Origin: a virus
Length of the DNA: 54,741 bases
IMG/VR virus record: IMGVR_UViG_3300029442_000007
Location: 1 to 54,741 of that record
Direction: 5' to 3' (one strand)
The position numbers and the translations under genes were made by a program. Of the stretch, positions 2,813 to 54,741 are shown in pieces. Numbering within the stretch: position 1 is the stretch's first letter; every line of letters begins with the position of its first letter. Below the pieces are notes generated by a model. The model searched no databases. It had not been told where the DNA came from and worked only from the letters and a program-made list of their open reading frames with translations.

Positions 2813-5131
2813 ATGGAAAACGAAAAGAAGCCTTCAATCCTCACGAATATCTCGGACAGATTCAAGTTCGGATTCTTAGGGAAAGTCTATCAGGTAAAAC
2901 CGCCTGACAAGCAAGAAGTCCCTTACATTGACGCGGAGTTCGCAGTTGACGAGACCGCAATCTATAAGCGGTTGAAATTAGTTCCTTACACTCCGGACGA
3001 CCTTCTCACAAAGAAAGGTTTCCCGATTCTCCAGAAAATGCTTTTCGACCCCGAAATCGAGGGCGCGGTTGATTCACTTCTCAGGGTCCGTCTCTCGTCG
3101 GGGTGGGAAGTGAACGCAGGAAACGACGACGAGGTCTCTATCGAACAGAGAGACTTTGTGGAATGGAATCTCGACAACATTGAAGGTTCTTTCGACGACG
3201 ACCTTCGGGAAATAATGAACGCAGTTCCTCTCGGTTGGTCTCTTTGCGAGTTGGTCTGGTATGAAATTACTTCCGGACGATTCGCAGGGAAAATCGGACT
3301 TCGTGCAATCAAGTCTCGCAATCCTAAATATTTCAATCTCTGGACGGACGACTTCGACAACGTTCGGGATTATGGAGTCGTCAACATATCCTCATTCGGT
3401 TATGGGGAAGGCTATCCGCGCGAGAAGTTCATAATCTACGCGTGGCAAAAACAATATGAAAACATTTTCGGGAAATCGGCAATCCGCTCTCTCTACGACT
3501 ATTGGTTCTTGAAACAGGTATTCACTCGCGCGTGGGGGATCTATATGGAGAAGTTCGGACATCCTTTCCCGATTGTGAAATATCCTCAAGGAATGGACGA
3601 CACGTCTCGCGGAAACATTCTACAAATGATTCGTCAAATCAGAATGGAGACGGGCTTGATGATTCCGGATTCTTGCGAGTTCGAACTTCAGTCGGCTATG
3701 GCTTCCGGAACGAGTGACCCTTTTTCGTCGGCTATGGATTGGTTCAATACTCAAATCCGGAAAAGAATACTCGGACAAGACCTGACCGGAGAGAGCGGAA
3801 ATAAGTCCGGTTCTTATTCTCTCGGACAAGTTCATTTCGATATACTGCTTATGTTCGAGGAACAATTAGGAATCGACCTTGCAAACAAAGCAGTCAATCC
3901 TCAAATCATTCACAGGCTCATTGACATCAATTATCGGAACACAACGGACTACCCTGAGTTCAGATTCAAACCTCTCATTCAAGACGACCGCGAAGCAATC
4001 ATAAAAACATACTTCGCAGGGGTTCAGGCGAATATCATCAAGCCTATACCAGAGGACGAGAAAGTCATTCGCGAATACCTCCATTTGCCTTCTCGCAATA
4101 CTGACGCGCCTGTCGAACAGACCGCGACAGCAAAAGCGCCGACAGCGACGAAGCCGGAAGCCATTCCGGAAGCAACGAAGGAGAAGGAGTTCGAATACAA
4201 AGAGTTCGCCGACCAGATAATAACCGGAGTCCCGAAACGCGCTCTCACAAAGTTCGAGGAATCCGTCGACTTCGCGGAAATTAAAATGACAATGGAACAC
4301 GAGGTCGCGTCCGGCTCTCTGGTAGTCGCGAAACTGATACAGGATTCCGTCAAAGATTTAATCTCACAGATAGACAAAAAGAAAATCATCACCGAAAAGA
4401 ATCTCTCTGAGATAGACAAACTCAACTTGAAATACACCGGAGACATCAAAGCGGAGTTCGAAAAGATACTTCTCGAAGCCTACAAGAAAGGAATGAGGGA
4501 CGGAAGGCGAGAACTGACAACTAAAAAGAAGGCTCTCAAGTTCAAAGAGTTCTCTTGTTTCGCGGACTACAGGGAAGTCAAACCTTCTCAGGCAATAGAC
4601 TATTTCAAACAGAAAGCCTTTTATATGGCAGGGGTCGAAAGAGACAACGTTCTCAAGAAAGTCAAATCAGTTCTATTGAACGGACTGAAGCAGGGTTCGA
4701 CTCAGAAAGAAGTCATCAACGAAATAGACAACGCGATGACGGAATACATAGCAAAGTCCGGAAGCGCTGAATCGGAAATCGCGGACGAGATAACAGGCGC
4801 GAGAATTGAGACAATCGTCCGGACAAACTACGCGGACGCGTTGACTCAAGGACGGAAAATGTTTTTTGAATCCCCTGAACTTGACGGGTATGTCGTCGCA
4901 TATCAGTATTCCGCAATAATGGACGACAGAGTCCGTCCGAATCACGCGTGTTGTGACGGAAAATTCTTTTCAATCAATTCTCCGGTATGGAAGGAGTTGA
5001 CCCCTCCGAACGGATTCAATTGTCGTTGTATGATTGTCCCTATTACTACTGATGATGATTGGAGTGAGGACACTAAGGGCGCTTGTTGTAAAGCGGACGT
5101 CGGATTCTCTAAAGTCGGGGGGAAAGAATGA
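2813..5131 (+). CDS. Portal protein fused to MuF/SPP1 gp7-like minor head protein
   Basis: This 772-aa protein joins two normally separate head proteins. Residues about 1-430 resemble DUF935 (Mu gp29-like) portals, the ring through which DNA enters. A charged Ala/Lys/Glu linker follows. The C-terminal part (about 560-765) carries the minor-head signature: DDRVRPNHACCDG, then PPNGFNCRC. The ATG follows AAGGACGGA. It overlaps the next gene by ATGA. No stop or restart lies between the two parts. Confidence 0.85.
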   Translation: MENEKKPSILTNISDRFKFGFLGKVYQVKPPDKQEVPYIDAEFAVDETAIYKRLKLVPYTPDDLLTKKGFPILQKMLFDPEIEGAVDSLLRVRLSSGWEVNAGNDDEVSIEQRDFVEWNLDNIEGSFDDDLREIMNAVPLGWSLCELVWYEITSGRFAGKIGLRAIKSRNPKYFNLWTDDFDNVRDYGVVNISSFGYGEGYPREKFIIYAWQKQYENIFGKSAIRSLYDYWFLKQVFTRAWGIYMEKFGHPFPIVKYPQGMDDTSRGNILQMIRQIRMETGLMIPDSCEFELQSAMASGTSDPFSSAMDWFNTQIRKRILGQDLTGESGNKSGSYSLGQVHFDILLMFEEQLGIDLANKAVNPQIIHRLIDINYRNTTDYPEFRFKPLIQDDREAIIKTYFAGVQANIIKPIPEDEKVIREYLHLPSRNTDAPVEQTATAKAPTATKPEAIPEATKEKEFEYKEFADQIITGVPKRALTKFEESVDFAEIKMTMEHEVASGSLVVAKLIQDSVKDLISQIDKKKIITEKNLSEIDKLNLKYTGDIKAEFEKILLEAYKKGMRDGRRELTTKKKALKFKEFSCFADYREVKPSQAIDYFKQKAFYMAGVERDNVLKKVKSVLLNGLKQGSTQKEVINEIDNAMTEYIAKSGSAESEIADEITGARIETIVRTNYADALTQGRKMFFESPELDGYVVAYQYSAIMDDRVRPNHACCDGKFFSINSPVWKELTPPNGFNCRCMIVPITTDDDWSEDTKGACCKADVGFSKVGGKE

Positions 5132-7176
5132 CTAAAAGAATATCCTTTTGTCTTATCGTAAAGAACGAGGAAAAAAATCTCGGACGTTGTCTTGAGTCAA
5201 TCAAGCCCGTAGCGGACGAGATAGTCGTCATTGATACAGGCTCGACGGATAGGACTAAGGAAATTGCGATCAGTTATGGAGCAAAAGTCTTTGAAAAGGA
5301 ATGGACGGACGACTATTCTGAAGCGCGGAACGAATACTTCAAACACGCGACCGGAGATTTCATATTCTCAATAGACGCGGACGAATGGGTAAACAAGTCA
5401 AACTATCCGGAGTTCCAAAAGATAAAAGAAAGAGACCTCGCGTTGTATTCGACAATGATATTTTCAATCAAGACCTCAGGGGACATTCTCTATTCGTCGA
5501 ACTTCAGATTGTTTCCGAATGATACTCGTCTCCGGTGGGAGTTCATTGTTCACGAAAATCTCAGGGACGACGGGAAAGTATTTCAAACCCTTCCGTCGAA
5601 ATTGTTCCTCTTACACTCCGGATATATGGTCGAGGAAATACAGAGGAAAAAAACAGCCGAAAGGAATCTCCGTCTCTTGAAACGTCAAATAGAAAAGACT
5701 CCAGATTCTCTCTATTTCCTCTATCATTTAGGGAATGAACTCTATCACTCTGGAGACTCAAAAGCCTCTCAAAAGTCATTCTCACGCGTTTTAGAGGCAC
5801 TTTTAAGGACTCCGGATAGCATTTATTGTCAATATCTACCTTCCGTCTACGAGGGACTCGCTCTCTGTGCAATCGACCTCAATGAATCGGAATCAATTGA
5901 GGCTCTCTCGAAGGTCGATACAATCTCTCCGAACTTTTATATTCAATTGTCTCGTCATTTCAAACTACAGGGACAATTCGGAAAGGCGCACGAACTCGCG
6001 GACAAAGCAATCAACGTCATTTCGCAGGTAAAAAATCTTATTACATACGACGACGGGGACGTATCGTTCAAACCTTACGTCAACAAAGCGGACATATATC
6101 TCAAAGAGGGAAATCCTGTCAAGGCTTACGACTATTTCCGACTCGCATATCTCGAACGCGAGAATAATGTCGTCATTCGTATCCTTGCCGGACTTGCGTC
6201 TCAGGTCGGACGATTCAAGGACGCGGAAAAGTTTGTAGGCTTAGCAATCAAGAACGACGACACAACGGAGAACAGGCTTCTCCGCGCGGATATAGACATT
6301 AACTCCGGAAAAATAGAAAAAGGCTTTGAGACCTATTTCAAAGAGGGGACTCCGGAGCAGATATACGACCTCGCAAAAGTTCTCACTAATTCACAAAGCC
6401 CCGAACTCTCCGAAAAACTTCTCGGACATATTGAGAATCGTTTCGAATACCATTCATTCATAAAAAAGGAAACTCTCTCGGATTGCGTCACGATAGTCAT
6501 TCCGACACTCTGGAAGGCTGACAAAGGCGAGTTCGGAAGGACTCTCCGAAACCTCTCTGCTTGTCCGGCAGTCTCAAAGATTGTTATTCTCGACAACGCG
6601 AAATCCGGCTCTCCATTTCCTATTCCGGAGAAAGTGGACGTTCTCTCAGGTTTGAATCTCTACGTCAATCCCGCGTGGAATTACGGAGTCGAAACCTCTA
6701 AGACGAAATACTATTTGTTATTGAACGACGATTGTATCGCGGACGCGTCAGTCGTGGAGTCTTGCGTTCAGATACTCGAAAACTATCCGGACTATGACGT
6801 TGTAGTCTCTAAGACCTCAGAGGAACACTACGACGACTATATCTCAAGCCTCGAAAAAACGGACAGGGTAGAGTTCGTCAATGTTCCTATTTCGAAAATA
6901 TTCGGCGGTTGGTTTATTCTCGGAAGGGTCGAAGGTTGGAAGTCTATTCCTGATAATTCTGCTCTCCGTATATTCTACGGAGACGATTATATTTACGACC
7001 AGACTATATTCAGACGTAAGAAAAAAATATGCAAACTTGTCTCCGGACACGTCTCTCATTTCGCGTCTACTACCTGCAATTCGGAAGGAATATACGGGAC
7101 TCCTGAACTACTCGAAGCGCGGAAGGTTTACTCGAATATAAGACTGATAGAGTTCAAAAGTGAATTAAGGTATTGA
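5128..7176 (+). CDS. Two-domain GT2-type glycosyltransferase with TPR-like middle
   Basis: This 682-aa protein begins with a GT-A domain: FCLIVKNEE, VIDTGSTDRT and the DAD metal site (residues 83-85). The middle has TPR-like helices (LYFLYHLGNELYHSGD and following). A second GT-A-like domain starts near residue 450 (VTIVIPTLW, LLLNDDC). The N-terminal half resembles the protein at 53703. A glycosyltransferase between portal and scaffold suggests virion glycosylation, but the acceptor is unknown. Confidence 0.8.
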   Translation: MTKRISFCLIVKNEEKNLGRCLESIKPVADEIVVIDTGSTDRTKEIAISYGAKVFEKEWTDDYSEARNEYFKHATGDFIFSIDADEWVNKSNYPEFQKIKERDLALYSTMIFSIKTSGDILYSSNFRLFPNDTRLRWEFIVHENLRDDGKVFQTLPSKLFLLHSGYMVEEIQRKKTAERNLRLLKRQIEKTPDSLYFLYHLGNELYHSGDSKASQKSFSRVLEALLRTPDSIYCQYLPSVYEGLALCAIDLNESESIEALSKVDTISPNFYIQLSRHFKLQGQFGKAHELADKAINVISQVKNLITYDDGDVSFKPYVNKADIYLKEGNPVKAYDYFRLAYLERENNVVIRILAGLASQVGRFKDAEKFVGLAIKNDDTTENRLLRADIDINSGKIEKGFETYFKEGTPEQIYDLAKVLTNSQSPELSEKLLGHIENRFEYHSFIKKETLSDCVTIVIPTLWKADKGEFGRTLRNLSACPAVSKIVILDNAKSGSPFPIPEKVDVLSGLNLYVNPAWNYGVETSKTKYYLLLNDDCIADASVVESCVQILENYPDYDVVVSKTSEEHYDDYISSLEKTDRVEFVNVPISKIFGGWFILGRVEGWKSIPDNSALRIFYGDDYIYDQTIFRRKKKICKLVSGHVSHFASTTCNSEGIYGTPELLEARKVYSNIRLIEFKSELRY

Positions 7177-7201
7177 CAGAATGAAAATGGTTTTGTAGTA
7201 T
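7173..7201 (+). promoter_or_regulatory. Sigma-70-type promoter for a short structured RNA
   Basis: TTGACA (7173-7178), a 17-bp spacer and TAGTAT (7196-7201). The -35 overlaps the stop of the glycosyltransferase gene. Predicted start is about 7208, at the 5' edge of the structured RNA; readthrough would serve the capsid operon. Confidence 0.7.
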
Positions 7202-7207
7202 ATGGAA

Positions 7208-7272
7208 GGTCGCTTTTGATTCCTCTGGAATCGGACGTATGTCCGGCGCAGAATATCAAAGGCGACTTTTTT
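7208..7272 (+). ncRNA. Candidate 65-nt small RNA ending in an intrinsic terminator
   Basis: An outer 12-bp helix pairs GTCGCTTTTGAT (7209-7220) with ATCAAAGGCGAC (7255-7266), with one G-U pair, followed by six T. It encloses two hairpins: TTCC/GGAA (7220-7230) and CGGAC-GTAT-GTCCG (7232-7245). The promoter places the RNA start at its 5' edge. It may be an sRNA or an attenuator for the scaffold/capsid genes starting at 7287. Confidence 0.6.
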
Positions 7273-7286
7273 ATTAAGGGGAGATT

Positions 7287-17410: not shown

Positions 17411-17921
17411 AACGAAGGCTCTTTTCATAGTCTCGGTCGGTCTCGCTGTCTCTTTGTATTTTAATTTTCAGAAGCCTCGAATCGAGAAGCAAACAATCAC
17501 CGACACAAAAGAGGTCGAGAAATGGAAAGCGCAATATAATTCGCTTCAAGAAAAATACACGCGAGATATATCTCGGAACGTAAAAACTACCTGTTTGACT
17601 CATATCGTTTATAATTCGTCAGGGGTGAAAGTCTCTGAGGACATATCGTCGGAGACCCTCGACCTCAGCAAGATAGACTCATCAAATACGTCGTCGTCAA
17701 CGACCACAATCACTACAGAAGGAAAGACAATTGAAAAGACAAAAGAGGTCGTCAAATATAAGAGGACTTCTATTTTTCTCGGCGGTTTTGAATCAGGACT
17801 TCTCTCTGACTATGGAATCCGGACGGGAATGTCTGTTGACGATTACAATTTCGACGTATCCTATGGAATCATACGAAAAGAACTTATCGTCGGCGCGACT
17901 ATAACGATTATAACGTGGTGA
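17400..17921 (+). CDS. Membrane-anchored protein, possible spanin-like
   Basis: The GTG at 17400 follows CGAGGGTTG and is preferred over a TTG at 17394. One N-terminal transmembrane helix (ALFIVSVGLAVSLYF) is followed by a coiled coil and a beta-rich end rich in Ser/Thr. The layout resembles i-spanins or u-spanins, and lysis genes are nearby, but no family match is clear. Confidence 0.5.
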   Translation: MDYKTKALFIVSVGLAVSLYFNFQKPRIEKQTITDTKEVEKWKAQYNSLQEKYTRDISRNVKTTCLTHIVYNSSGVKVSEDISSETLDLSKIDSSNTSSSTTTITTEGKTIEKTKEVVKYKRTSIFLGGFESGLLSDYGIRTGMSVDDYNFDVSYGIIRKELIVGATITIITW

Positions 17922-26588: not shown

Positions 26589-26798
26589 ATGGACAAACTA
26601 ACTAATCAGGAACTCCGTCAGGTTCTCGTCTTTTCAATCCTAATGCAGAAAGACGAGGGGATTCTCTGAAAAGCGCCTTCGTATATCCGCGAGAAGTTCT
26701 CGACCTGTCTCTCGGATTCTACACCGGAAAGGAATCTCGATTCGGAAGGACTCGCGAAGTTCAATCTCTACGTTTCAAGGTGGGGGGTGAAAATATGA
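26589..26798 (+). pseudogene. Small gene interrupted by an in-frame TGA
   Basis: The ATG follows CGGGGAGAAAG downstream of the operator promoter. After 26 codons comes TGA (26667-26669). The same frame then stays open for 42 codons (KAPSYIREKF onward) and stops at 26796-26798, overlapping the next ATG (26795) in the usual ATGA manner. The coupling argues that both halves were one gene. A one-base TCA-to-TGA change, sequencing error, or readthrough would explain it. Confidence 0.6.
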
Positions 26799-27565: not shown

Positions 27566-28407
27566 TGACAAGCGCGAAAATGGAAAAAAAGAAAATCACA
27601 AAGCGAGTCCGGCGCGTTATTCCGGACGACGTTCAAAACAAGTCAATCGCGGTCGCAATTGAGAAGGCTCAAGCGCTTCTATTGACGAAGGAAGTCGAGG
27701 GTCAAATCATTGACAAACTCGCATATTCATTTCCACAGAAAGACAAGAACGGGAAGGAACATTCAATCGACGGGCTGACCTTCTGGGGATACAAAGCCTG
27801 TGCAGAGAACGCGAGGGTCAACGCGTGGACTCCGGTATTTATGAAGCCGGAATATACTCCGCTCTCGAACGGAAAAGTCATTCTCAACGTCGGAGTAAAG
27901 AATCCTAAAACGAAGGCGGTCGAATATGGGAATTGTGTATTTGACCCGAACAGCAGATTCGACGAGAGAACAGCCCTCACGAACGCGAAGCGGTATGCAC
28001 TCGACAAACATATCTCCGTCCCTCAGCGCGTCGCGTTCATAGAATACCTTAAAGCCTATGAGCCTGAGAAAGTCCTTCAAATCACTTCCACGGAAGTCCA
28101 CGCGATCAAACCGAAGGAACTGACAACGTCCGTCACGAAAACACCGGACGACGCGCAGAAGGATATCGCTCTGAAGGCTGTATTCGCCCAGGTCGGAAAC
28201 ATAAAGACAAAGACCGGAGTCAATCTCGACAAGGAAAAAGTTAAGCAGTATTTCAAAAACAAATCCGGCGCTGTATCAATGCGAGACCTCTCCGTAGTCG
28301 AACTCCGGCAGGTATGGCAAGAACTCTATACAATCGGACAAGACCCGAAAGCACTCGCAAAGTTCGCGAAGGAAATCGAGTCCGTCGAGGTGATAAATGA
28401 AAAATAA
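27565..28407 (+). CDS. Single-strand annealing protein candidate
   Basis: This 280-aa protein lies directly upstream of, and overlaps, an exonuclease-like gene, as phage annealing proteins often do. It has an alpha/beta core (TNAKRYALDKHISVPQR) and a helical C-terminal region (QYFKNKSGAVSMRDLSVVEL). No ERF or RecT signature is certain. The call rests mainly on context. Confidence 0.45.
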   Translation: MTSAKMEKKKITKRVRRVIPDDVQNKSIAVAIEKAQALLLTKEVEGQIIDKLAYSFPQKDKNGKEHSIDGLTFWGYKACAENARVNAWTPVFMKPEYTPLSNGKVILNVGVKNPKTKAVEYGNCVFDPNSRFDERTALTNAKRYALDKHISVPQRVAFIEYLKAYEPEKVLQITSTEVHAIKPKELTTSVTKTPDDAQKDIALKAVFAQVGNIKTKTGVNLDKEKVKQYFKNKSGAVSMRDLSVVELRQVWQELYTIGQDPKALAKFAKEIESVEVINEK

Positions 28408-29500
28408 AAACGATTTTCCTCACGTCTCATTCACTCAGTTCGACGTCTACTCTCAATGCGCCGGACTCTATAAAAGACTCTACAAGACAGAGAGACCGCG
28501 CGACGACGGAAACCGGAACAGGATTTTCGGCTCTTTCCTTCACGAAGTCTACGCGTCGACGAACAGGTTTATCAAAGGACTCAAGGACAAGAAGTCTTTC
28601 GGACTTGAGGACATTGAGAAAATCTACTCCGACGAGTTCAAGAAGGTCAGACTCAGCCTTGAGGACTATCATACTGGCTGGAACTCTCTCCAGAAGTTCG
28701 CAGAGGAAACCTTCAATCAACGCGCGGAAATACTTCTCGTCGAGGACTCTCTCACTCTCGAACTCGTCGACGGAGACGAAGGAATCGCAATCCTCGCAAT
28801 TCCGGACAGGGTCGACGAGGTCGGAGACGCGCTCAAGATAATCGACTATAAATTGAGTCCGCTGATTCCTTCCGTCTCTGACGTGGAGTCGTCGCTTCAG
28901 TTGAATATCTACGCGTTCATTCTCCGTTCAATGTATCCGAACAAGCAAATCTATCTCGAACAATACTCAATGATTAAAGGAATTGGAATCAAAGCCTCTG
29001 TCAACGATTCAATTCAAGCGAAACTCTCCGGATATATGATTGACCTCTGGAGAAAAATGAAATCGGACACAGAGTTCACTCCGACGACCTGCAATCGCTG
29101 TCAGTATTGTCCTGAAGTATGTCCTCTCTATACGGATTATATGCGCCGGACATACGAGTCAAAAGGAATCACTACAATCGAACAGGCTGTCGAGACCTAC
29201 GAGAAAGTAAAAACGAACTTTAACATTCTCTCGAAAGAAAAGGACAATCTCAAATCCTACATCGAGAGCAAGTTCGACGAGAACGTCGGGACTCCGATTC
29301 AGGTCGGAACGAAGGTCGTCTCTCTGGAAGTCGGCTCAAGGTCGACGAGTAAAATCGACAAGGAACAAGTCTGCAAAGATTGTAAGGCGATAACATACGG
29401 TCGGTCATATTTCAACACAATTGAAATTGCTGAAATAAAGACCGGAACAGAAAAGAAGGAAACAAAGAAAGGACTTGACAAGAAAATCAAAAAATCGTAG
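28397..29500 (+). CDS. PD-(D/E)XK nuclease, RecB/Cas4-like with Fe-S cysteines
   Basis: This 367-aa nuclease has the motifs of the RecB/Cas4/AddB group: His49 (FLHEVY), Asp137-Asp140 (PDRVD), Asp150-x-Lys152 (IIDYK) and QxxxY at 168-172. Cys21 plus Cys232, 235, 238 and 242 fit an Fe-S cluster. It probably makes 3' single strands for the preceding annealing candidate. The late Cys-rich region is complete. Confidence 0.85.
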   Translation: MKNKNDFPHVSFTQFDVYSQCAGLYKRLYKTERPRDDGNRNRIFGSFLHEVYASTNRFIKGLKDKKSFGLEDIEKIYSDEFKKVRLSLEDYHTGWNSLQKFAEETFNQRAEILLVEDSLTLELVDGDEGIAILAIPDRVDEVGDALKIIDYKLSPLIPSVSDVESSLQLNIYAFILRSMYPNKQIYLEQYSMIKGIGIKASVNDSIQAKLSGYMIDLWRKMKSDTEFTPTTCNRCQYCPEVCPLYTDYMRRTYESKGITTIEQAVETYEKVKTNFNILSKEKDNLKSYIESKFDENVGTPIQVGTKVVSLEVGSRSTSKIDKEQVCKDCKAITYGRSYFNTIEIAEIKTGTEKKETKKGLDKKIKKS

Positions 29501-29503
29501 AAT
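29475..29503 (+). promoter_or_regulatory. Sigma-70-type promoter for structured RNA and replication genes
   Basis: TTGACA (29475-29480), a 17-bp spacer and TAGAAT (29498-29503). It lies across the end of the nuclease gene. Predicted start is about 29510. CTTGACAAG at 29474-29482 repeats the element at 751-759. Confidence 0.7.
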
Positions 29504-29541
29504 TGAAAACGGGAAAAAAAGAAAACGAATACAAAGTCCAA

Positions 29542-29622
29542 AGAGAGCGCGGAGTTCAAGAGGTCAAACTCTTGCAGGTTCAATCCTACGGATTTTCTAC
29601 CTGTTCCCGACTCCGCCTCTCT
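29542..29622 (+). ncRNA. Three-way-junction RNA ahead of the replication genes
   Basis: A 13-bp outer helix with one bulged C pairs AGAGAG/GCGGAGT (29542-29555) with ACTCCGC/CTCTCT (29610-29622). It encloses CAAGAG-GTCAAA-CTCTTG (29557-29574) and a hairpin pairing CAGGT/ACCTG with inner AATCC-TAC-GGATT (29575-29603). The size is tRNA-like, but no T-arm exists. The 143-nt gap is large for this genome. It may regulate the initiator gene or be an independent RNA. Confidence 0.6.
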
Positions 29623-29643
29623 AAATGGGAGAATCGAAACCGA

Positions 29644-30456
29644 ATGAAATATCTAATCGTAATCAATCAGAAAGAACTTATGAGAATCGCGCCTGAAATA
29701 ACCGAATCCGAAGCAATCGTTCTCGACTACCTGATTTTCTACTGCTCGTCTATCAACGAACGGATTGATTCACAAAGGATTCAAGGTTTTACTTGGATAA
29801 ACTATCAGACCATTCTCGACGACCTGCCTATTCTCTCCGGCAGAACTCCGGCTTCCATAACCGAAAAGATTAAACGACTTGAGGAAATGGGACTCATTCA
29901 AACCGACAAACAAATCGACTCCACGACCGGACACGCGCGAAAATACATTAAAATCACAGACAAAGCGCGTTCAATCTACGCAGACCCTAATCAGACCTCA
30001 TTTGGTTTTCTAAATGACCCTATTCAGAAAACTGAACGACCTCGTTTAGAAAACTTAACTAATACAGATACTATTGATACAGATACTAAAGATACTAAAC
30101 CCTTGCCGATTCAGAAATCCGAATCGGCTTCCGTCCGTCAATTCTCTGACTTCTTTGTCAATAAATATCTCAATGCCAAATGGAATACTTCTCATAAAAA
30201 GTATTTTTATTCCGGCGCGAAGGACACAAAACTCATTAAGACTCTACTCAAAAGATTCACTCTCGACGAACTCCAGACTTTCGCTGTCAAGTTCTTTAAG
30301 TCCGATGATAAGTTCATTACTTCGTCCGGATATACTATCGGAGTTTTCTATTCAATGATAAACAAACTACAAGTCGGAAACACAAAGCCGAAGTCATTAC
30401 TCGAACGAGAGAGGGGACTGAAATATGTTCCAAAGGGGAAACCCGTCAATGTATAA
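29644..30456 (+). CDS. Replication initiator/replisome organiser
   Basis: The ATG at 29644 is chosen because an upstream TTG (29503) would translate the structured RNA. The N-terminal winged helix (ESEAIVLDYL, then LSGRTPASITEKIKRLEEMGLI) is followed by a Thr/Asp linker and a helical C-terminal domain, like phage replisome organisers. It overlaps the DnaC-like gene, supporting an initiator-loader pair. Confidence 0.7.
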   Translation: MKYLIVINQKELMRIAPEITESEAIVLDYLIFYCSSINERIDSQRIQGFTWINYQTILDDLPILSGRTPASITEKIKRLEEMGLIQTDKQIDSTTGHARKYIKITDKARSIYADPNQTSFGFLNDPIQKTERPRLENLTNTDTIDTDTKDTKPLPIQKSESASVRQFSDFFVNKYLNAKWNTSHKKYFYSGAKDTKLIKTLLKRFTLDELQTFAVKFFKSDDKFITSSGYTIGVFYSMINKLQVGNTKPKSLLERERGLKYVPKGKPVNV

Positions 30457-31069
30457 ATGTAAAAAATGCAACGACTCATTTTTCGAATCTTTTGAGCGAG
30501 ACGGATATTCCTACGTCACGCGTTGCGACTGCTATTTTCTCTATTTGAAAAAGAAAAAGTTCGGACAGCACTACGAACTCAAGACTCTCGAAAACTACGA
30601 GGAACGTTCTCCGACAATGGCGGAAGCGAAACAAATCCTCTTATCATCACCGGAGAAGTCCTATTTCATAACAGGGTCGGTCGGACTCGGCAAGACTCAT
30701 TTACTCGTCGGAATCTTTGACGCAGTCCTTCACTTACGAAAGATTCAGCCGGAACAGATATTCGTTATGACCGAACTACAATTGCTCGATTCATTGAATA
30801 AAAAAACGGACGAGGTTGAGGACTTGTCAAGATACACGACGTTCATTATCGACGACATAGGAAAAACAAACCTCGCGAAATGGGACATTGAAAAGTTCTA
30901 CGCGTTCTACAATGAAATCTATCGGCAGAGTCGGACTCTCGTCGTCTCGTCGAATTATTCAATCTCGGACATATCGGAAATCTACGGGGGCGCAATTGCG
31001 CGACGGATAGACGAACTCGCTTCCGTAATAGAAATCAAAGCGCCGGAACAATCCGGTCTAATTCAATAG
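30449..31069 (+). CDS. DnaC-like helicase loader (AAA+ ATPase)
   Basis: This 206-aa protein (ATG 30449; an ATG at 30425 is also possible) has an N-terminal zinc site (CKKC and CDC), Walker A GSVGLGKT (76-83), Walker B FIIDD (132-136) and a sensor strand TLVVSSNYS. It should load the host replicative helicase at the origin together with the preceding initiator. Confidence 0.85.
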   Translation: MYKCKKCNDSFFESFERDGYSYVTRCDCYFLYLKKKKFGQHYELKTLENYEERSPTMAEAKQILLSSPEKSYFITGSVGLGKTHLLVGIFDAVLHLRKIQPEQIFVMTELQLLDSLNKKTDEVEDLSRYTTFIIDDIGKTNLAKWDIEKFYAFYNEIYRQSRTLVVSSNYSISDISEIYGGAIARRIDELASVIEIKAPEQSGLIQ

Positions 31070-48847: not shown

Positions 48848-48854
48848 CAAAATA

Positions 48855-48928
48855 CCGTGCTGGGCGACAGTTAGCCCGATTTGACTGAGCAAGGGGAGGC
48901 GCCTAGCGCTTCCCCACTCGGTCCACGG
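48855..48928 (+). ncRNA. Candidate structured leader RNA
   Basis: CCGTG (48855-48859) pairs with CACGG (48924-48928), enclosing GGGC/GCCC (48862-48877) and a long arm: CTGAG/CTCGG plus GGGGAGGCGC-CTA-GCGCTTCCCC (48885-48921). The Shine-Dalgarno site and ATG 48940 follow at once, so it could control translation; no T tract follows. No known riboswitch class recognised. Confidence 0.5.
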
Positions 48929-48939
48929 AATGGAGTGAA

Positions 48940-49389
48940 ATGTCAGTAAGAAAAAAGTTCGACAAAGAATTATATAAAGAAAACGATGAGATAGCTAAAC
49001 GCATAGCGTCTCTTGTGGCTACCAAAAAATACGGCTATGAAGTAAAACAAAATCCAGACCAATATGGTGTGGATCTTTTGTTATTTAAAAACGGTTTAAT
49101 ATCTGGTTATGCTGAAGCTGAAATTAAAACGGTATGGGACACGTTTAATTTTCCGTACGAAAATATACAGTTTCCAGAACGCAAGATTAAGTTTACAAAT
49201 CTAGGATTGCCAACAATGTTTTGCATGGCTAATTCATTGAAGGATAGGGCGTTGGTGGTTTGGGGGAAGGATCTGAGAGCAAGCCCAATAGTGGAGGTCT
49301 CTAACAAGTATAATGCTAAGGGCGAGTTGTTCTTTCAGGTTCCGTTAGAAAAAGCCATATTTTATACTATTAAATTAAGGACGGAATAA
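48940..49389 (+). CDS. PD-(D/E)XK-like nuclease candidate
   Basis: This 149-aa protein has PDQYGVDLLLF (Asp45) followed by AEAEIKTVW (Glu61-x-Lys63), the nuclease motif spacing. A resolvase or restriction-like role is possible. Its start lies 12 nt after the structured RNA. Confidence 0.6.
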   Translation: MSVRKKFDKELYKENDEIAKRIASLVATKKYGYEVKQNPDQYGVDLLLFKNGLISGYAEAEIKTVWDTFNFPYENIQFPERKIKFTNLGLPTMFCMANSLKDRALVVWGKDLRASPIVEVSNKYNAKGELFFQVPLEKAIFYTIKLRTE

Positions 49390-51227: not shown

Positions 51228-51349
51228 CTAAAACAAATAAGTATCAAAAGGATTCTTACATTTCAAAGACAAAAGAAACAAGTTTGCCAATTTTTTTGTG
51301 AACCACCTAATCCCGGTTCGAGTCCAGGCCCCGGAACCAAGGAGAACGA

Positions 51350-53702: not shown

Positions 53703-54741
53703 ATGAAAACTATTTCAGCATGCATAATTTGTAAAAACGAAGAGCCAGTTCTAGATAAAATGTTTAATAGTATTAAGTCTGTAGTCGATGAAATCATTTT
53801 TGTAGATACCGGCAGTACAGATAAGTCTAAAGATATAGCCGCTAAATACGGCGCAAAGATATATGATTTCCCATGGACTGGTTCTTTTTCTGATGCACGT
53901 AATGAAGCCATGAAACATGCAACGAAGGATTTTATATTTCAAATAGATTGTGATGAAACCCTAACATCTCAGAGCGTTGCAGAGTTGCAAAGATTAAAAA
54001 ACTGCGATCTGAAATTATATAATGTCACCATGCACAATTTTTTAGATACCGGTGATATGGTCGTGAGCAATAATTTTAGATTATTTCCCAATGATAAAGA
54101 GTTAGTGTATGAATTGCCGATACATGAGAATGTATCTGACTATAAAAATAAATATAAAATAGACGGTACGTCAATTATATTAGATCACTACGGATACACT
54201 AAATCCGAGAAAGATAGAAAGGGCTCTGATAAACGAAATTATGATATGCTTAAAGAGTGTGTTGATAAAGAACCCAATAACCCTTACTTTATATATCATT
54301 TTGCGCAACAGTGTTTTCTTGCTAAAAAATATGAAGATGCATATAAGTTTTATATGCAAGTTGTTGATATATTAAAAGCTGATCCTAAACATTTTTATGC
54401 AAACTATCTTCCGCTTTCATATGACGGAGCAGCTGTTTGTGCGACGACAATCAATGATATTAATAAAATTAATGCGCTTAAGGATGTTGAAACAACGTCA
54501 TCAGCATTCTATTTAAATTTAGGTACGTTCTGCGAAAACGCAAATCTATTAGATGCAGCGATAACGCTATATGATAAAGCGTGCTACTGTACTAAGTTAA
54601 TAGGAAAATTGTTGAGCTATGATAATGGCGCAATGACGTGGAAACCATATGCTAGCTTAGGCAATGCATACTTTAAGGCCGGGAAGATAAGCAAGGCAAT
54701 AGATGCATACAGGCTGGCATTAAGCGAGAACCAAGTTTTGC
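53703..54741 (+). CDS. GT2-type glycosyltransferase with TPR, cut by the window end
   Basis: The ATG follows AAGGAGACG. The GT-A domain has ISACIICKNEE, VDTGSTDKS and the DCD metal site (82-84), then TPR-like helices (YFIYHFAQQCFLAKKYEDA). It resembles the N-terminal half of the part A protein at 5128. No stop before the window edge. Confidence 0.85.
   Translation, partial: MKTISACIICKNEEPVLDKMFNSIKSVVDEIIFVDTGSTDKSKDIAAKYGAKIYDFPWTGSFSDARNEAMKHATKDFIFQIDCDETLTSQSVAELQRLKNCDLKLYNVTMHNFLDTGDMVVSNNFRLFPNDKELVYELPIHENVSDYKNKYKIDGTSIILDHYGYTKSEKDRKGSDKRNYDMLKECVDKEPNNPYFIYHFAQQCFLAKKYEDAYKFYMQVVDILKADPKHFYANYLPLSYDGAAVCATTINDINKINALKDVETTSSAFYLNLGTFCENANLLDAAITLYDKACYCTKLIGKLLSYDNGAMTWKPYASLGNAYFKAGKISKAIDAYRLALSENQVL

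Follow-up and report, generated by a model that had tools for sequence, protein, structure and literature searches.

Directly ahead of a phage replication-initiator gene lies a 94-nt element that folds as a three-way junction and that, judged from the sequences of two phages, is a real, uncatalogued structured RNA, because a relative (IMGVR_UViG_3300025162_000138, here G003) keeps both its fold and its place with different letters in two of its arms. We think it fairly probable that the two sequences are the only members so far of a new family of 5′ leader RNAs that act in cis in phage replication-initiator operons. The element was found in IMG/VR record IMGVR_UViG_3300029442_000007, analysed over its full 54,741 nt (54.7 kb; ‘the window’). 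This uncultured phage encodes a Mu-type portal, a major capsid protein and tail genes, together with two tRNAs and one tmRNA called by ARAGORN.

The sequence-only reading had placed the element in a gap of 143 nt, and that is the distance between the end of a RecB-like exonuclease gene at 29500 and the ATG of the initiator at 29644; the initiator is followed by a dnaC-like gene. The features of the region are as follows:

28397–29500: RecB-like exonuclease gene, directly upstream of the gap
29475–29503, plus strand: sigma-70-type promoter TTGACA-17-TAGAAT (11 of 12 consensus positions), with a predicted transcription start at about 29510
29510–29536, plus strand: unpaired, A-rich 5′ lead of the predicted transcript (from the sequence), A-rich in G003 as well
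29542–29556, plus strand: 5′ strand of helix P1 (from the fold), with a bulged C at 29548
29557–29574, plus strand: P2 hairpin, 6 bp with loop GUCAAA (from the fold)
29575–29603, plus strand: P3 hairpin, CAGGU..AAUCC UAC GGAUU..ACCUG, conserved in sequence in G003
29604–29608, plus strand: single strand J3/1, UUCCC (from the fold)
29609–29622, plus strand: 3′ strand of P1 (from the fold)
29626–29631, plus strand: P0, a 4-bp extension in which UGGG within this interval pairs with 29537–29540 (from the fold)
29627–29631, plus strand: ribosome-binding site GGGAG, overlapped by P0
29644–30456, plus strand: replication initiator, 270 aa (phrog_428, E 1.6e-11)
30010–30096, plus strand: direct and inverted repeats within the initiator gene, candidate origin iterons
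30425–31069, plus strand: DnaC-like helicase loader (phrog_50, E 9e-23), 53% identical in G003

The junction occupies positions 29537–29630 and has a minimum free energy of −41.0 kcal/mol in the window, with a z score of −5.3 to −5.9 and one dinucleotide shuffle in 4000 as good. When the whole 54.7 kb was scanned in 100-nt windows with correction for GC content, it ranked third by structure, and the two places above it are intergenic too. The 13-bp closing helix described earlier was recovered as the 13 Watson-Crick pairs of P1 (29542–29547 and 29549–29555 with 29610–29616 and 29617–29622), with one C bulged and an extra U-G pair (29556/29609) adjoining. The two inner hairpins had both been called perfect, which is correct for P2; P3 is interrupted, consisting of 5 bp, an internal loop of 2/4 nt and a further 5 bp. 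The first bases of GGGAG are 2–38% unpaired in the window fold, and the spacing from this site to the ATG is long, at 12 nt.

A consensus promoter had been placed about 30 nt upstream of the structure, and the 11/12 site is indeed found 32 nt upstream of the junction. Sites matching at least 11 of 12 positions number eight on the plus strand of the record and one on the minus strand, with 0.63 expected per strand; given the count on the plus strand, most of these sites are probably real. The leaders that follow other clear promoters (752, 24288, 26516 and 53653) run for some 0–40 nt to the start codon, which makes a folded leader of roughly 135 nt an exception. Since this promoter lies ahead of the junction and no terminator separates it from the gene, we infer that the element is transcribed as part of the 5′ leader of the initiator mRNA.

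G003 was reached via portal proteins: a capsid search gave one relative, and a two-sequence portal profile then gave 26 more, G003 among them. Both phages have the order promoter, A-rich lead, three-way junction, ribosome-binding site, initiator and dnaC, and the promoter-like site of G003 (TGGACA-17-TATACT) stands at the same place as that of the window. Folded alone, the G003 leader gives the same junction (z −5.87), which was also formed by 8 of 8000 shuffles of that leader, and no alternative fold common to the two leaders was found. Their Smith-Waterman score is 187, against 102 ± 16, and none of 6000 shuffles scored as high; on sequence grounds, the two leaders are homologous. A covariance model built from the window sequence alone found a single match in 410 kb of relatives, the G003 site, with an E-value (1.1) that is weak taken alone; when the 18 kb locus was searched with filters off, the E-value was 8e-4. 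A descriptor search for P1, P2 and P3 among the relatives ranked G003 first as well. Within the G003 leader J3/1 has 6 nt (UCUCCA), giving this strand a length of 5–6 nt; P0 is not kept, the bases at its position lengthening P1 by A-U pairing, and the start codon is paired with sequence further downstream.

In an alignment of the two sequences (one homologue) that was fitted to the structure, 13 of the 30 modelled pairs are changed on both sides, and 96.5% of scored cells are paired (2 of 57 unpaired), compared with 29–46% in slid-alignment controls; a plain MAFFT alignment misplaces P2. Nearly all of the compensating changes are held by P1 (7 of its 14 pairs) and P2 (5 of 6, with a GAAA loop in G003), and the base of P3 keeps its sequence: the elements CAGGU, AAUCCU and UCUACCUG are identical in the two phages. 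The one homologue found therefore displays, at the same gene position, the compensating changes of a conserved structured RNA, rather than the uncompensated breaks that had been named earlier as evidence to look for against it.

The suggestion that the element fits no riboswitch class agrees with the Rfam searches. No family matched positions 29475–29643 at the gathering cut-off (4227 models, riboswitches and ribozymes included), G003 was likewise without a match, and a permissive search up to E 10 gave chance-level results (best E 2.6 for the window and 2.3 for G003). The reported lack of a T-arm is also borne out, since ARAGORN and Rfam (RF00005) call no tRNA or tmRNA at the element; the string GGTTCAATCC resembles part of a T-arm but forms none. 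A tRNA or tRNA-like identity, which would need a cloverleaf with a T-arm, was rejected by the same two methods. A literature search for three-way-junction RNAs of phages or replication initiators found no match.

The following sequence of events would account for this arrangement. Transcription would start near 29510, and after an A-rich lead of about 30 nt the three-way junction would fold, its closing helix stopping 5 nt short of the initiator's ribosome-binding site, in a message that continues into the dnaC-like gene. P1 and P2 would act as scaffold, because only their pairing is kept; P3, as a sequence-conserved arm on that pairing-only scaffold, would be the likely contact for a trans-acting factor. 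The simplest candidate is a protein from the phage's own replication module, which may be the DnaC-like protein or the initiator, through its conserved C-terminal part. The frequency of ribosome loading, and hence the amount of initiator, would then depend on such binding or on the folding. The leader probably gates the ribosome-binding site next to it, P3 being the part that is recognised, and the RNA probably governs the onset of phage DNA replication. P0 might itself hide the ribosome-binding site, which we put forward as a hypothesis only, since P0 is not conserved in G003. The earlier proposal of a new phage RNA that controls the initiator accordingly stands as to place and conservation; as to regulation, we infer action in cis, with translation as the controlled step. 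In its fullest form the proposal is of a new class of phage RNA: a leader folded as a three-way junction, with P3 constant in sequence, would sense a factor of the phage or of the host and gate initiator synthesis accordingly. In this form it is plausible but tentative.

A rival reading is a trans-acting small RNA or processed RNA, cut from the initiator message or ending at the junction and acting elsewhere, or else an intercistronic processing or stability element. The 13-bp P1 with P2 stacked upon it (about 19 stacked pairs) could be cut by RNase III; the element has its own promoter, P1 of G003 is followed by UAUUUUA, and relatives G001 and G010 carry simple hairpins at another intercistronic place, between their recombinase-like and exonuclease genes. 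We nonetheless regard this reading as unlikely: neither the window nor G003 has a terminator-like site after the junction, and a plain processing hairpin would need no sequence conservation in P3. (The hairpins in question are strong and differ in sequence; they lie at L003 11958–12038 in G001 and at L051 ~17660–17735, minus strand, in G010.) An attenuator, with the junction alternating with a terminator or antiterminator, has a possible parallel in the distant relative G011, where a promoter, a structured leader of about 130 nt and a GC stem with a U-run precede the initiator. At the junction itself a scan found no GC stem with an immediate U-run in the window or G003, on which basis an intrinsic terminator or attenuator was rejected, and the similarity of the G011 leader to the other two is not significant, so that attenuation appears improbable. 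For the latter reason G011 was also turned down as a third member of the family. Its leader (L041 159–353), which has a strong promoter and two interleaved helices ahead of the GC stem, is possibly an attenuator of another design.

The sequence-only reading had further suggested an origin element, and a DNA site of this kind (an origin, or a cruciform bound by the initiator) would fit a window core whose pairs are all Watson-Crick, which adjoins the initiator and which gives the same fold as single-stranded DNA (−20.1, z −4.2). Against it stand the promoter upstream and, in P2 of G003, a G-U pair and an RNA-type C(GAAA)G loop. The initiators themselves are 59% identical over their last ~107 aa, whereas their N-terminal halves are unrelated; since the RNA is kept all the same, it follows the operon and not the DNA-binding domain. 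Direct repeats are also found in the coding sequence of both initiators, ~420–460 nt from the start, and origins of the lambda type have their repeats inside the initiator coding sequence, as in lambda O. For these two reasons an origin at the junction is doubtful and an origin inside the gene looks likelier, and we give the DNA reading a small probability. Smaller still is the chance that the fold is incidental to coding sequence, with the initiator starting at TTG 29503 or a small leader gene covering the gap. The gap is open in frame with the initiator from that TTG (317 aa), with a codon score like that of real genes (0.20–0.33), and a 40-aa open frame runs over the G003 junction. Yet shuffled sequences reach such a score in 18% of cases and lack stops in 18%, the TTG lies ahead of the predicted transcript start and has no ribosome-binding site before it, and the G003 initiator frame contains five stops in the 165 nt before its ATG; the shuffles and these stops led us to reject an N-terminal extension of the initiator. 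The window frame that matches the open frame of G003 moreover has none of the usual start codons, and a comparison of peptides from the two phages showed no clear similarity (best score 25, in other frames).

Several known systems come close to the proposed cis-acting leader. The replication-initiator mRNAs of plasmids, such as IncI/IncB repZ and pT181 repC, have structured leaders, and share with the window a promoter-proximal folded leader just before the initiator ribosome-binding site. Those leaders depend on an attenuator, on a leader peptide or on antisense RNA, whereas the window has no antisense promoter of at least 9/12 (minus strand, 29408–30422), no conserved leader peptide and no terminator; the first of these results led us to reject an antisense-controlled rep leader, and antisense promoter sites in G003 reach 9/12 at best. 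The lambda oop/O region resembles the window in that a phage RNA immediately precedes the initiator gene and candidate origin repeats lie inside that gene. The oop RNA, however, is a simple antisense RNA with a terminator, made from the opposite strand, whereas the promoter and junction of the window are on the sense strand. Purine and TPP riboswitches (Rfam) share a P1 closed by two hairpins with a possible expression platform adjoining; the window differs from them in having no Rfam match and in carrying its conserved sequence in a hairpin arm instead of at the junction. Phage-associated structured RNAs known from comparative genomics, namely manA, wcaG and c4 antisense RNA (PMC2864571), belong to other genes and have other folds, and the element matches none of them in Rfam, c4 (RF01695, PMC2864571) included.

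Searches for further members returned G003 alone. No match was obtained with 1.6 kb around the element as a nucleotide query against phages, with the window initiator, exonuclease, terminase and DnaC as single queries against viral contigs, with the window initiator against genome contigs and phages, or with the G003 initiator against phages. The exact P2 and P3 strings are absent from viral contigs, and a P3 motif pattern matched genome contigs 22 times (about 37 expected, by our own estimate) with none of the matches folding with the junction. A two-member model (R2) found only G003 among the 27 relatives, mostly fragments, and nothing in 392 and 398 genomes of two phyla (~790). On present evidence the family is narrow, and its reach now looks limited to two phages of one uncultured group. 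To our knowledge, few structured leader RNAs are known on phage replication initiators. If the proposed control is real, the choice to replicate would be made at the RNA level. The element also shows that RNA control of replication can be sought in uncultured phages, and it offers for testing a defined stretch of 94 nt in two natural variants, with one conserved arm.

Other sites in the record deserve mention. A second strong three-way junction (48853–48931; −43.8 kcal/mol, 0 of 4000 shuffles) precedes another gene, lying just before an ATG at 48941, and has no Rfam match up to E 1. At 7173–7275, in a 110-nt gap before the head-protease gene, a promoter (TTGACA-17-TAGTAT) precedes a long hairpin that has a T-run at its end; the arrangement resembles a short RNA gene that carries a terminator of its own. 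Two related glycosyltransferase-like genes (5128–7176 and 53703–54741) lie near opposite ends of the record. The stretch 51310–51340, shortly after the tRNA-Gln gene, resembles the 3′ part of a tRNA (cccggttcgagtccaggccccggaacca) and is not called as one. Finally, a small gene that follows a good promoter (26589–26795) contains an in-frame TGA (...DEGIL*KAPSYI...) where a relative (L003:10559–10756) has ...NDGIIGKAPSYV...; because this phage otherwise uses TGA as an ordinary stop, we ascribe it to a nonsense change or a sequencing error.
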